This document shows, in pieces, positions 1 to 56,594 of a DNA stretch of 64,000 nucleotides. Under the pieces are notes generated by a model. The model was given only the letters and a program-made list of their open reading frames with translations. It was not told where the DNA came from and made no database searches. Origin of the DNA: Bacillus sp. P14.5 (GTDB taxonomy: Bacteria > Bacillota > Bacilli > Bacillales > Bacillaceae_B); contig NZ_NIJF01000066.1 in assembly GCF_003316765.1 (NCBI RefSeq), positions 161,523-225,522 on the forward strand. Reading direction: 5' to 3'. Numbering within the stretch: position 1 is the first letter of the stretch; each line of letters begins with the position of its first letter. A program made the position numbers and the translations under genes.

Positions 1-678
1 GTGGATACATGAGATGGAGGTTTGAGGCAGAGATATGTATCCAGAAGGGTGAGGTGGGTACATGAGATGGAGGTTTGAGGCAGAGATGTGTATCCAGAGG
101 TGTGAAGTGGATACATGAGATGGAGGTTTGAGGCAGAGATATGTATCCAGAAGGGCGAGATGGGTACATGAGATGAAGGTTGGAGGCAGAGATATGTATC
201 CAGAATGGTGAGGTGGATACATGAGTAGGAGGTTTGAGGCAGAGATGTGTATCCAGAAGGGCGAGATGGGTACATGAGATGAAGGTTGGAGGCAGAGATA
301 TGTATCCACAAGGGTGAGGTGGGTACATGAGTAGGAGGTTTGAGGCGGAGATGTGGATCCATAAGGGTGAGGTGGATACATGAGTTGGAGGTTTGAGGCA
401 GAGATATGTATCCAGAAGGGCGAGGTGGATACATGAGTTGAAGGTTTGAGGCAGAGATGTGTATCCAGAAGGGCGAGGTGGATACATGAGTTGAAGGTTT
501 GAGGTGGAGATGTGTATCCATAAGTGTGGAGTGGATACATGAGTTGGAGGTTTGAGGCAGAGATGTGTATCCAGAAGGGTGAGGTGGATACATGAGATGG
601 AGATTTGAGGCAGAGATATGTATCCAGAAGTGTAAGGAGGACACACGAGCAAGAGGATTGGAGGAGAGGTGTATGACC
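1..678. repeat. 53-bp tandem palindrome array (array A)
   Basis: Twelve full 53-bp units start at 1, 54, 107 and so on to 584, followed by a degenerate thirteenth at 637. The array probably continues left of the window. Each unit holds inverted arms GGATACAT and ATGTATCC separated by 24 nt of purine-rich sequence. Units differ by a few substitutions, some of them shared between non-adjacent units. No convincing gene lies in it; the short frame at 592-783 is repeat sequence. Same geometry as the array at 11445. Confidence 0.95.
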
Positions 679-4029: not shown

Positions 4030-4290
4030 ATCTGAAAAAATTATAATGAAATCGCTTAGACAGGAACAAGTAGTCCCGTTATCCCTATCCCAGAGAGTCA
4101 GTGGCAGGTGGAAACTGACATATATGACGTGATGAATTACCTCCTCGAGCTTTTGCTGTGAAAGACAAAAAAGTCGATTAGCGGCAAACGGGAAAACCGT
4201 TATTCTGTAGAGTGAAGGATACTTGTGTCCTTAAGTTGGGTGGTACCGCGTGATAAACGTCCCTGCATTGGCAGAGGCGTTTTTTTTGTG
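4030..4290 (+). promoter_or_regulatory. T-box leader (tyrosine) with terminator
   Basis: The leader contains the conserved T-box sequence GGGTGGTACCGCG at about 4238-4250, followed by a terminator hairpin and U-run (about 4255-4290). Upstream, a Stem-I-like region shows an AG-bulge-like element near 4092 and a probable specifier TAC (Tyr) at 4138-4140. Uncharged tRNA-Tyr is expected to stabilise the antiterminator and allow tyrS transcription. The specifier is inferred from position and from the downstream gene. Confidence 0.93.
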
Positions 4291-11444: not shown

Positions 11445-11712
11445 GCGAGGTACATGTAAAATGAAATTTTCAAAGATGGTGTCCCCCGCGCGGCTGGCGA
11501 GGTACATGAAAAGAGGTAATTCACAAAGATGATGTACCTCGCACAGCGAGCGAGGTACATGAAAAGAGGTAATTCACAGAGATTATGTACCTCGCACGGC
11601 GAGCGAGGTACATGAAAAGAGGCAATTCACAAAGATGATGAACCTCGAACGGCGAGCGAGGTACATGAAAAATAGGATTTCTCAAGATGATATCCCCCAC
11701 GCGGCCGGCCGG
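11445..11712. repeat. 53-bp tandem palindrome array (array B)
   Basis: Five units begin at 11445, 11497, 11550, 11603 and 11656 (steps 52, 53, 53, 53). The central units hold CGAGGTACAT and ATGTACCTCG arms around a 24-nt spacer. The outer units have degenerate right arms (TCCCCCGCGCGG type). The rest of the 11325-11920 gap shows no gene. Confidence 0.9.
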
Positions 11713-18622: not shown

Positions 18623-18677
18623 TAGTTCGAGAATTAGTTAGTGTTTCTGAATCCAGCCCCTCGGGGTCAAATAACCC

Positions 18678-18715
18678 CTGGAGAATAAAAGGAAAAACCG
18701 CCTTTTTTTCTCCAG
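18678..18715. repeat. 15-bp near-perfect hairpin downstream of braB and ezrA
   Basis: CTGGAGAATAAAAGG pairs with CCTTTTTTTCTCCAG with one mismatch and an 8-nt loop. It lies in the 18623-18831 convergent gap and may help end the braB transcript, though it lacks a clean T-run. Confidence 0.45.
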
Positions 18716-18831
18716 AGAACATTTGCCTGTCGGGGCTGAAAGGGGCGCTTGCGCTTTTTTTGCAATCCAGCTCCAAGGCCCCAACGGCTAGCAGATTTCG
18801 GTCTCTCTCCTTGCGATAAGTCATCATCAAC

Positions 18832-20244
18832 TCACTTTGTTCGTTGTGATTCCTTTATCTCATACGAGAGCCCTACAATCTGTACGCCGCTAAGCGGGAC
18901 CTTTCCGCTTTTTTTATATAATTTTCTTTTTTCTCCGATTCCTGTAGAAATCAGGAAACCGAGGATGCTGCCTATTACCGCCGGAAGCAGCCAGCCGACT
19001 CCTTCATTGAATAAAGGCAGAAAGCTTAAAGTGTTGTTTAGAGCAGGAAATTCAAATCCTGCGGTTTTTAAGCCGTCGATGAAACTGATAAGGAAAGTGG
19101 ATATCAATGCACCGATATACACCCCGGAAAAACCGTTGAACCAGTTATGCATGAATGAAAGGATTATCAGCACAATGGCCAATGGATAAATGACAATCAG
19201 CACCGGCAGGGAAACGGAAATCAGCTGTGTCAATCCAATATTTGCGATGATCATACTGAAAATACTGATGATAATGACCAGTATACGGTATGAAAAGGGC
19301 ATTAGTTTTGAAAAGTATTGAGCACATGCGGACACCAGGCCGATAGAAGTAGTCAGGCATGCGAAGGTAATTGCCAGTCCCAGAATGATGGTTCCTATCT
19401 GGCCGAACAGGTAATTTGCGGAACCGGACAAGATGGCTCCACCATTTTCCTTCAATCCGATAGCTTCTGTACTCGTTGCTCCGATATAGCCAAGTGACAC
19501 ATATACGAGTGCCAGGCCAGCAGCTGCAATGATTCCTGCATATATACAAGCCTTAGTAATAAGAGCCTTGGACTCAAATCCTTTTTCTCTGATAGAGTTG
19601 ATAACAACAATTCCAAAAACAAGTGCCGCGATTGTATCCATTGTAAGGTAGCCTTCAAGAAAGCCCTTGAAAAACGGACCATCCATATAGGCGCCGGAAG
19701 GACTTTGAAGGTCGCCCATTGGTGTCAGGATACTCTTTATCACCAATATCGTGAGGATGACAAGTAAGGCAGGGGTCAAAACTTTTCCAATCCTGTCAAC
19801 AAGCTTGGCCGGATTCATGGCCAGCCAAATCGTTAGTCCGAAAAAGATAATCGTATAGATGAATAGTGATAAACCATATTTATTCACACCTTCTGGAAGG
19901 AAGGGTGTGACACCAATTTCATAAGCGACCGTCCCAGTCCGGGGAATCCCAAAAAACGGGCCGATTGCCAGATACATGATGACAGTAAAGATTACTCCAT
20001 ATACAGGATTAACTCTGTTTGCCAGTGTCTGCAGATCTCCACCCGTTTTGGCAATCGCAATGATTCCCAGCAGTGGAAGCCCAACACCGGTTATCAAAAA
20101 ACCGAAAATTCCAATCCAGATGTTTTCTCCAGCCTGCTGCCCCAAAAACGGAGGGAATATCATATTGCCAGCTCCGAGGAACAGAGCAAACAACATCAGG
20201 CCTACAGTAAATATCAATTTGAATGACAGCGCTTTCTCTTTCAT
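18832..20244 (-). CDS. braB: Branched-chain amino acid:cation symporter (LIVCS family)
   Basis: Integral membrane transporter of 470 residues with about twelve hydrophobic segments, family BrnQ/BraB, taking up leucine, isoleucine and valine with a cation. The N-terminal LFALFLGAGNMIFPPFLG signature is diagnostic. The start at 20244 follows AGGGGGT. In B. subtilis braB also neighbours ezrA. No T-box is visible in the roughly 280 bp upstream, which show only an AT-rich stretch. Confidence 0.92.
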   Translation of the reverse strand: MKEKALSFKLIFTVGLMLFALFLGAGNMIFPPFLGQQAGENIWIGIFGFLITGVGLPLLGIIAIAKTGGDLQTLANRVNPVYGVIFTVIMYLAIGPFFGIPRTGTVAYEIGVTPFLPEGVNKYGLSLFIYTIIFFGLTIWLAMNPAKLVDRIGKVLTPALLVILTILVIKSILTPMGDLQSPSGAYMDGPFFKGFLEGYLTMDTIAALVFGIVVINSIREKGFESKALITKACIYAGIIAAAGLALVYVSLGYIGATSTEAIGLKENGGAILSGSANYLFGQIGTIILGLAITFACLTTSIGLVSACAQYFSKLMPFSYRILVIIISIFSMIIANIGLTQLISVSLPVLIVIYPLAIVLIILSFMHNWFNGFSGVYIGALISTFLISFIDGLKTAGFEFPALNNTLSFLPLFNEGVGWLLPAVIGSILGFLISTGIGEKRKLYKKSGKVPLSGVQIVGLSYEIKESQRTK

Positions 20245-24371: not shown

Positions 24372-24452
24372 TGGTGCAGGTGTCCTTCGGGAGAGTCATG
24401 AGGGACACTTGGAGGATCATAAAGAGGTGCAGGTGTCACAAAAAGCTGTATA
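24372..24452. repeat. Two-unit 53-bp palindromic repeat (array D)
   Basis: GGTGCAGGTGTC occurs at 24373 and 24426, exactly 53 bp apart. The first unit has GTGTCC ... GGACAC arms around a 17-nt spacer. It lies between the SASP terminator and ytcI. Confidence 0.65.
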
Positions 24453-28009: not shown

Positions 28010-28512
28010 AAATAGCGGATAGCGGTCTTGTATTGAGGAATGCGGGCCAATGAGAAGACGAATAAAAAAGATAACTCCCCGCATAGGAGGAATACGGGCC
28101 AACCCGAAGGTGAAAAAAGAAGATAACGGCCTGCAAAGATGGAATACGGGCCAACGAGAAGGAGATAAGAGGAATATAACGGCCCGCAAAGGTGGAATAC
28201 GGGCCAACCAGAAGGAGGAAAAGAGAAGATAACGGCCCGCAAAGGTGGGATACGGGCCAATGAGAAGACAAAAAAGAAGATAACGGCCCGCAAAGGTGGA
28301 ATACGGGCCAATGAGAAGGCGAGAAAAAGAAGATAGCGGCCCGCAAAAGCGAAATACGGGCCAACCAAAAGGCGGAAAAGAGAAGATAGCGGCCCGCAAA
28401 GATGGAATACGGGCCAATGAGAAGGCGAGAAAAAGAAGATAACGGCCCTCAAAAGCGAAATGCGGGCCAATGAGAAGGCAAAAAAAGAAGATAACGGCCC
28501 GCAAAATCTAAA
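28010..28512. repeat. ~53-bp tandem palindrome array (array E)
   Basis: Nine units marked by GGGCC at 28044, 28096, 28148, 28201, 28254, 28305, 28358, 28411 and 28464 (steps 51-53). Each carries CGGGCC and GGCCCG arms separated by a purine-rich spacer of about 24-28 nt. All three minus-strand frames stay open with near-identical repeats; that is a by-product of the repeat and not evidence of a gene. Confidence 0.93.
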
Positions 28513-41443: not shown

Positions 41444-41507
41444 TGAGCCAGGCTTAGAAGGCGGAAATCGAGTCAGGCTCAAAAAGCAGAAAATGAGCCA
41501 GGCTCAC
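41444..41507. repeat. 25-bp palindrome array (array G)
   Basis: Three TGAGCCAGGCTCA-type palindromes begin at 41444, 41469 and 41494, exactly 25 bp apart, the first two slightly degenerate. The same palindrome and period recur at 52302. Confidence 0.85.
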
Positions 41508-52301: not shown

Positions 52302-52392
52302 TGAGCCTGGCTCAAAAGGGAGGGTCTGAGCCTGGCTCAAAAGGGGGGATCTGAGCCAGGCTCAAAAGAGGGAAACTGAGCCAGGATCAAAG
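52302..52392. repeat. 25-bp palindrome array (array I)
   Basis: TGAGCC(T/A)GGCTCA starts at 52302, 52327, 52352 and 52377, exactly 25 bp apart; the last is slightly altered. The spacers are purine-rich. Confidence 0.92.
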
Positions 52393-55832: not shown

Positions 55833-56159
55833 TTTAGCCGGGGTTTCTGGACATCTAAACTATATATTCGGGAGAGATATAGTAAAAGAGTTTATGCAGA
55901 CCTGTGAAGTGATAAATGAAGAGAATGAATACTTCAAGAAGGCTTCTGGAGAATTGCGACTGCACAAAAAAAGAGAAGCAGCCAGCTTTTCTAAAGTCTG
56001 TATTCTAAAAGATTGCTGTTTTTTTGCTATTTTCCCCTCCTCCGCATTTTATATAGTAGGAATGCCGCTTGGAAGCTGTTGAGTTTCCTTCTGCCCAGCC
56101 TGTATAAAAAGTGGAAGCCTAGGTAAATCCCCTGTCAGGCAGATAAACACCCTATTATA

Positions 56160-56512
56160 ATCCGGAAAACGTCTTATAGTATAGTGATTAGCGAGTAAAC
56201 ACCCTAGTATAATCAGAAAAACGTCTTATAGTATGGTGATTAGCGAGTAAACACCCTAGTATAATCAGAAAAACGTCTTATAGTATGGTGATTAGCGAGT
56301 AAACACCCTAGTATAATCAGAAAAACGTCTTATAGTATGGTGATTAGCGAGTAAACACCCTATTATAATCAGGAAAACGTCTTATAGTATAGTGATTAGC
56401 GAGTAAACACCCTAGTATAATCAGAAAAACGTCTTATAGTATAGTGAATAGCCCGAAAACACCCCATTTTAATCAGGAAAACGTCTTATAGTATGATGAA
56501 TAGCGGATAAAC
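56160..56512. repeat. 52-bp tandem array (array J)
   Basis: Seven units aligned on GTCTTATAGT at 56171, 56223, 56275, 56327, 56379, 56431 and 56483, exactly 52 bp apart. Each carries an imperfect inverted pair, CACCCTAGTATAA with TTATAGTATGGTG (11 of 13), 13 nt apart. It fills the convergent gap between nrnA and ytrI. Confidence 0.93.
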
Positions 56513-56594
56513 GCCCTATTCATACAAAACAATATTAAACAGCATCCCAAAAAGCTTATAAGGTTGCCACGCAAAGCGTTTATTAACTTCAATA

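Follow-up and report, generated by a model that had tools for sequence, protein, structure and literature searches.

Bacterial tandem repeats usually show a wide variety of unit lengths. The MIRU-VNTR minisatellites of mycobacteria are intergenic tandem units of roughly the same size as those described below, from which, going by the general description of the former, our arrays are set apart by their many families and their polarity. KOPS and SRS are polar chromosome sequences, short single motifs whose orientation follows replication; our arrays share this orientation but have no octamer in common. The nearest named kind is that of the REP/BIME elements, which, in the parts of the reports available to us, are extragenic, occur in many copies and have palindromic units that stand in alternating order and form tandem clusters (PMC3733652; PMC2817692). 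Many copies, tandem clusters and alternating order recur in our arrays, in which inverted arms are significant in 45 of 64 and none of the 64 lies inside a called gene. The RAYT link failed where it was tested, no array standing at the Y1 transposase loci that were checked; our arrays further differ in that one period of 52/53 bp extends over many sequence families and that stem pairing is not kept unit by unit. Borg tandem repeats, as far as the consulted part of their description goes, are perfect copies of varied length, about half of them in genes; they resemble our arrays in that many different tandem repeats occur per genome, turn over rapidly and are partly intergenic (PMC9879509), whereas our units are diverged, have one length and lie outside every called gene. 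Eukaryotic satellites of nucleosomal length, to the extent that the consulted part of the source covers them, likewise combine a preferred unit length with changing sequence (PMC8122249); the present case differs in being a bacterium with dispersed short arrays, a 52.5-bp period and no known packing particle.

We could not match the combination of varied sequence, near-constant length of 52 or 53 bp and replication-following direction to any named repeat family. Among the matches listed from the open-access literature, which lacks most subscription journals, no title or abstract beginning describes such arrays in Bacillaceae, a weak negative. What is new here is the polarity of the arrays relative to replication. 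One genome appears to hold an estimated 170 to 190 arrays (scaled from 17 in 480 kb without the window and 21 in 544 kb with it) that share one length over many sequences and favor one direction with respect to replication. This raises two testable questions in bacteria that are not known as pathogens: whether bacterial DNA is read in helical phase by a protein across hundreds of base pairs, and how short noncoding elements spread with replication polarity and no evident transposase.

The window, i.e., the whole stretch of DNA that was analyzed (64 kb; G000:C27:161523-225522), belongs to a Rossellomorea draft genome of 4.87 Mb in 121 contigs (6.4% contamination by the tool's figure). An earlier note had reported tandem arrays of inverted arms with a conserved period in this window, an observation that is confirmed and proves wider than first stated. 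The arrays and sites are as follows.

1..649 (+), array A: TRF period 53, 12.2 copies, 87% match; arms TGGATACAT/ATGTATCCA, inner spacing 24, outer 11.
11445..11712 (+), array B: TRF call at 11445-11671, period 53, 4.3 copies; arms GCGAGGTACAT/ATGTACCTCGC, inner 24, outer 7.
24372..24440 (+), site D: about 1.3 units of the CAGGTGTCC family, 53-bp spacing.
28037..28505 (+), array E: TRF period 53, 8.9 copies; arms CGGGCC/GGCCCG, inner 28, outer 13; higher-order period of 157 bp.
56144..56518 (+), array J: TRF period 52, 7.2 copies; arms TAAACACCCTAGTATAA/TTATAGTATGGTGATTA with mismatches, inner 13, outer 5.

Array A continues to the left beyond the window edge (L046:19451-19916), so that the window contains only its right part. 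At site D, CAGGTGTC repeats at exactly 53 bp (window 24377-24437, corresponding to G000:C27:185899-185959); TRF makes no call there at a score of 50, the site consisting of one unit and the start of a second. The repeat length of 51 to 53 bp that the earlier note gave for A, B, and E is borne out by a TRF period of 53 for all three, its inner spacer of 24 nt in A and B and 24 to 28 nt in E agrees with the measured 24, 24, and 28, and the period of about 52 to 53 bp ascribed to D and J holds at 52 bp for J and at 53-bp spacing over about 1.3 units for D. In array B, the first and last units have a common divergent right arm (TCCCCC) and the inner units have the matching arm, as if a newer variant had replaced them. 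Genes near sites B, D, and E encode, by NCBIfam, methionine gamma-lyase, EzrA, BrnQ, cysteine desulfurase, ThiI, MbcS, and RarD, and 2 of the 10 proteins near these sites are without an NCBIfam match.

The unit length is narrowly distributed. In 25 stretches of the same genome that were picked without regard to arrays (544 kb, 11% of the genome, window included), 21 of 24 tandem arrays with units longer than 25 bp have a TRF period of 52 or 53 bp. All 41 TRF arrays in this unbiased sample are distributed over 52 bp (13 arrays), 53 bp (8), 51 bp (1), 25 bp (4), 60 bp (1), 101 bp (1), and 9 to 22 bp (13), with none at 26 to 50 or 54 to 59 bp; if the window is left out, 18 arrays of 51 to 53 bp remain (51 bp, 1; 52 bp, 12; 53 bp, 5). 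Sixteen further stretches picked for matches to family A, the family of array A (L031, L035-L044, and L046-L050; 320 kb), contain 41 TRF arrays, 23 of 53 bp, 6 of 52 bp, and 12 others that include one each at 36, 48, and 189 bp; these stretches stay outside the unbiased count and enter the counts of spacing, families, arm conservation, compensation, folding, position, and Rossellomorea polarity. Unit spacings in 70 arrays of 45 to 60 bp (n = 589; from G000, two Rossellomorea vietnamensis genomes, and Bacillus sp. SG-1, with one array each of G034 and G017 counted twice, and with none found in 15 kb of B. salacetis) are 53 bp in 390 cases, 52 bp in 162, 51 bp in 17, 54 bp in 9, and elsewhere in 11, i.e., 51 to 54 bp in 578 of 589; eight spacings at 48 and 60 bp come from two arrays whose unit lengths are divisible by 3. 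Higher-order periods of 106, 157, 159, and 317 bp were also seen.

This length is shared by many sequences. Clustering of cyclic unit consensuses on both strands gives about 12 families at the stricter threshold and 11 at the looser one, the number depending on the threshold, and every consensus is 52 to 54 bp long; four clusters (48 bp, 60 bp, a weak one of 51 bp, and a 50-bp REP dimer) were set aside from this count. Family A has 67 BLAST pieces in its own genome at no fewer than about 35 places, several of them at contig ends (by hand count among the best 40 of 45 candidates), and 43 distinct family-A arrays lie in the loci analyzed. Arm positions differ among the families, with inner/outer distances of 24/11 for TGGATACAT, 24/7 for GCGAGGTACAT, 13/19 for TAATGGTACG, 19/19 for GACACTT, 19/22 for GGTGTC, 23/9 for TAGAGACCCG, and 28/13 for CGGGCC; the inner spacers range from 3 to 38, and the period stays constant. 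The inverted element (measured by hand from GG to CC of the arm cores) varies in length between about 21 and 40 bp, whereas the sum remains at 52 to 53 bp, which makes the period the constrained quantity. Of the earlier proposal that geometry is kept while sequence changes, the period stands, across about 12 families, more than one genus and even at one locus, and the 24-nt spacer, with inner distances of 3 to 38, is not supported. What is constant is the period, not the spacer.

Comparison of orthologous sites in close relatives (R. vietnamensis CH34_1T [G033] and CH40_1T [G034] and Bacillus sp. SG-1 [G017]; unit counts partly by eye) shows that arrays at a given place appear, vanish, expand, and take on other sequences with no change of period. 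The site of array A is occupied in G000, G033 (19.3 units), and G034 (7.2 units), and that of array J is occupied in the same three genomes. Array E has about 9 units in G000 and G034, 2 to 3 in G033, and none in SG-1 or G026, and site D has 1.3 units in G000, 19.9 in G033, 16.5 in G034, and none in SG-1, B. salacetis, or G026. The site of array B is occupied by about 5 units in G000, by 9.9 or more in G034, and by a remnant in G033; in SG-1 it contains 2.8 units of a 52-bp sequence unrelated to B, and in B. salacetis what we read as two degenerate units about 53 bp apart. Conversely, 13.4 units of 53 bp follow an acyl-CoA ligase gene in SG-1, a place without units in G000, G033, G034, and B. 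salacetis.

Family A has DNA matches in 4 of the 36 genus genomes (G000, G033, G034, and a single weak match in G017); a search at the level of the taxonomic family covered the same 36 genomes. No array of 50 to 55 bp was found in 360 kb of six complete sister genomes, nor was any such array found in 78 kb of G026 and G035 or in 200 kb of four other genomes of the order. Such arrays do, however, recur outside Rossellomorea, in Mangrovibacillus cuniculi and lineage G099. A search of 159 genomes of the order with the site D array matched, besides G000, M. cuniculi (G053) and G110, the latter with a 51-bp array without significant arms. The small contig of G053 has a 100% match to NZ_CP049743.1, which identifies this genome as M. 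cuniculi. In 195 kb of M. cuniculi (ten stretches, two of which, L206 and L208, were chosen for matches), we counted ten arrays of 52/53 bp, with significant arms in 3 of the 10, as well as arrays of 42, 41, and 76 bp. The 42-bp array (L200:2605-2892; four helical turns) has the arms ATGGCGAC/GTCGCCAT. Pairs of CAGGTGTC at a distance of 30 to 60 bp occur in 23 of 397 genomes of the order: G099 has eight, all at 53 bp; G000 has six (three at 53 bp, then 51, 52, and 57 bp); and M. cuniculi has 33, of which the 10 among the matches listed are all at 53 bp. The pair is repeated at another spacing in G294 (36 bp) and G325 (42 bp), both divisible by 3, and most of the remaining matching genomes have one pair; the pattern read backwards also matches in a few genomes, with 21 matches in G115.

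A rival account of these data would be common descent with ordinary slippage, in which a single ancestral 53-bp minisatellite diversified and the period was simply inherited. An ungapped alignment joins two Mangrovibacillus families (score of 21 versus −13 in shuffles, SD of 4), one with complementary runs of TATACC and the other of GTCC; CAGGTGTCC arrays spaced at 53 bp are found in three lineages; and the higher-order periods are typical of slippage. On this alignment, arms do match between families; with it and the CAGGTGTCC arrays of three lineages, the earlier claim that arms are unrelated is not supported. However, drift by slippage should give other lengths, and the unbiased sample has no array of 26 to 50 or 54 to 59 bp; arm cores, by hand measurement, lie at distances that differ by up to about 19 bp between families at constant period; and dispersal with a fixed polarity is left unexplained. 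We consider common descent with slippage quite improbable. At two loci (L206:17246-17724 and L228:1311-2434), two families of 52/53 bp adjoin or nearly adjoin each other within a single site, as if one array had taken over from the other.

Inverted arms exceeding those of shuffled units (P ≤ 0.05; 100 shuffles) are present in 45 of 64 arrays, and in 13 of 21 in the unbiased sample; they are common but not universal, 19 of the 64 arrays being without significant arms. The search proposed in the earlier note, run on 544 kb for unit length and on 64 arrays for arms, found inverted arms in excess (45/64) together with unit lengths that are not broadly spread (21/24 at 52/53 bp). Whole-unit mirror symmetry was rejected as a statistic (mean z of 1.5; P ≤ 0.01 in 7 of 51 arrays), and contiguous arms were used instead because it was too weak. 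Identity to the consensus is 94.8% in arms and 88.1% outside, and arms are the more conserved part in 49 of 51 arrays (the consensus itself served to choose the arms; their mean rank among rotations is 0.16). No base-pair compensation is detectable, either between the arms of one unit (z = −0.58 in 51 arrays, one counted twice, 21 of them informative) or with the arm of the neighboring unit (z = −0.55), with single arrays ranging from −2.1 to +2.0. Watson-Crick cells number 4,330, versus 4,333 expected by shuffling, and a power test (best re-pairing, 4,280; expected, 4,222; observed, 4,219) indicates that there was room for compensation to show. Arm conservation without compensation at the unit level is evidence against pairing as RNA or as a cruciform, and it fits half-sites read in duplex DNA better than it fits pairing. 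Mismatches of the G·T and A·C types in arms follow no clear strand rule, and arm-to-arm distances, compared by hand with a 10.5-bp phase, follow no rule either, i.e., the spacing of the arms is without helical phase.

Transcribed RNA hairpins, as 3′ untranslated regions or noncoding RNA selected for folding, might be invoked for the fact that the arrays fold better than dinucleotide shuffles. The mean z is −3.2 on one strand and −3.1 on the other (65 arrays, one counted twice), so that folding shows no strand preference, and pairing shows no compensation. At B, D, and E, the array comes after a hairpin and T run that by eye resemble a terminator, and a crude scan places such a hairpin at 31 of 68 gene ends that face an array. 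Rfam has no match at the window arrays; its only match in the window is a T-box leader at 4048-4267 (RF00230, 139 bits). Compensation, strand symmetry and position all disfavor RNA hairpins, which we regard as extremely improbable. The constraint on hairpin structure that had been suggested is likewise not upheld, since unit-level compensation is lacking and both strands fold equally well, and the covariation check proposed with it, now run, gave no compensation (z of −0.6; 21 of 51 arrays informative).

Called genes contain none of the 64 arrays (our own longest-ORF calls, with ORFs consisting mostly of array masked). This, with unit lengths of 52 and 53 not divisible by 3, speaks against a coding repeat, and CRISPR does not fit because the whole unit repeats, spacers included, with no unique spacers. 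The neighbors of the arrays are in tandem in 32 cases, convergent in 18, and divergent in 8, with 6 arrays at edges, compared with 167, 40, and 53 array-free gaps, respectively, so that convergent gaps are enriched (18 of 58 arrays versus 40 of 260 background gaps). By these crude gene calls, divergent genes enclose 8 of the 58 arrays for which both flanks were called, so that a general rule of arrays downstream of gene ends is not supported.

The arrays are polar, with a tendency to be oriented along the leading strand. By GC skew, 55 of 65 arrays in Rossellomorea and relatives have their purine-rich strand as the leading one; orthologous arrays are counted separately in the counts of this paragraph and hence are not independent. 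The leading strand was taken here from GC skew over stretches of up to 20 kb (64 kb for the window); coding balance points the same way as skew in 37 of 40 cases. The purine-rich strand is also the coding strand at 28 of 32 tandem sites, versus 141 of 206 array-free gaps; because the latter lean the same way, part of the purine bias is background. Family-A arrays each keep a single orientation throughout, with 17 minority matches among 949 motif matches. Their motif agrees with the leading strand in 22 of 27 cases when this strand is taken from GC skew and in 19 of 27 when it is taken from coding balance; where the two indicators strongly agree, the figure is 13 of 17. It agrees with the coding strand of tandem neighbors in 11 of 14 (P = 0.057).

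Polarity can be followed along the chromosome of M. cuniculi, where the GGTATACC family has 44 BLAST pieces at 27 loci found (merged by eye, from the best 40 of 43 candidates). All 31 plus-strand pieces lie at 14 to 694 kb or 3,057 to 3,087 kb, and all 13 minus-strand pieces lie at 1,751 to 2,687 kb. Given that dnaA is at 2,714 kb and that GC skew changes sign between 1.0 and 1.3 Mb, the leading strand fits 44 of 44 pieces and 27 of 27 loci found; three loci at 3.08 Mb rest on the position of dnaA because skew is near zero there (−0.011), coding balance being weakly positive. The terminus-side third (C1:700000-1750000) holds 0 of the 27 loci found among the best 40 of 43 candidates, a gap that was noticed post hoc. 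Polarity and dispersal together suggest fork-coupled insertion or selection for direction.

Selection for direction would be expected if the arrays served the chromosome as polar, phased binding platforms for a nucleoid, segregation or topology factor, in the manner of FtsK/SpoIIIE orienting sequences or gyrase-binding BIMEs. The polarity, the conserved arms, the enrichment in convergent gaps, the empty stretch at 0.70 to 1.75 Mb in M. cuniculi (noticed post hoc), and the occurrence of GAGAAG on the purine-rich strand (72 versus 30.6 expected) speak for such a role. It could not be an essential one, because family A was not found in 32 of 36 genus genomes and sites are lost or replaced between relatives. 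Furthermore, no k-mer beyond purine runs is common to most families, and GAGAAGGG, which we take to be the SpoIIIE octamer, occurs 7 times versus 2.8 expected in 74 arrays. The SpoIIIE octamer was rejected as a general motif: the polarity agrees with an orienting sequence of the SpoIIIE/FtsK type, but no k-mer of 6 to 8 bases is present in most of the 22 groups. A chromosomal role is possible, if on the doubtful side.

No mobilizer or binding protein was found. For 666 ORFs near the arrays, the largest clusters, which were the ones listed, include no convincing recurrent neighbor gene; they have at most 5 members at 4 array sites, and the two largest look like ABC transporter and dehydrogenase paralogs. 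REP/BIME arrays moved by a RAYT (TnpA-REP) transposase would share with ours an extragenic position, frequent palindromes, clustering, and alternating half-sites, and the same genomes do hold RAYT-linked palindrome arrays of another length. Matches to Y1 transposases occur in all 36 genus genomes, yet arrays of 52/53 bp flank none of the 11 Y1 loci examined, i.e., 0 of 10 in G000, G033, G034, and G017 (3 of 4, 3 of 4, 3 of 3, and 1 of 1 matches examined, respectively; one IS200-like) and 0 of 1 in M. cuniculi. Lineage G099 has arrays, yet by our reading of score and length its 7 Y1 matches are IS200-like or fragments. A RAYT origin of the 52/53 arrays thus seems very improbable; the link is absent at the flanks checked, whereas arrays with 25-bp units do adjoin RAYT. 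The latter (window 41445-41506 and 52302-52391; palindrome TGAGCC(A/T)GGCTCA) look like RAYT-linked REP arrays because the same palindrome arrays are sited directly downstream of a 192-amino-acid RAYT in G033 and G034 and of a shorter homologous frame in SG-1; their linker strand is leading in 4 of 5 arrays. In M. cuniculi, an 85-bp tandem repeat (L255:1920-2488) adjoins the only Y1 transposase match.

The DNA helix has 10.5 bp per turn, and 52 to 53 bp correspond to five turns. We propose that the arrays are a DNA-level satellite that disperses and grows in tandem, is phased at five helical turns and is spread or kept in step with replication, a reading to which we assign a probability of roughly 0.45. 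Each unit would offer half-sites to a putative DNA-binding protein, and at five turns per unit all units would lie on one face of the helix. Copies may spread with the replication fork, for instance by way of an intermediate that is single-stranded or belongs to the lagging strand, and this would set the polarity; recombination and slippage would then homogenize and lengthen each array. As matched half-sites, the arms could change jointly at an unaltered period. Against this reading stand the 19 of 64 arrays and the 7 of 10 Mangrovibacillus arrays of 52/53 bp that lack significant arms, the arm spacing with no helical phase, the background share of the purine bias, the lower agreement of family A with coding balance, and the outcome of the search for a partner, which found no mobilizer or binding protein and no convincing recurrent neighbor gene. 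The simplest reading of 52.5 bp is helical phase. The Rossellomorea sample lacks arrays of 42 and 63 bp, which calls for a ruler and not phase alone; the single 42-bp array of M. cuniculi is a hint of phase and no more. A farther-reaching form would make the arrays a packing or segregation code and a mobile element at once, built on a sequence-independent five-turn ruler, with paired arm specificities switched together, leading-strand orientation, and avoidance of the terminus; this we consider unlikely.

A separate interspersed element lies at about 18640-18915 of the window. Two modules of about 128 and 150 bp make up this composite, which has strong hairpins and many matches in G033, G034, and G017. 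Tandem copies of 125/126 bp that resemble its first module occur in G033, and a 101-bp array of G000 (L065) resembles its second module.
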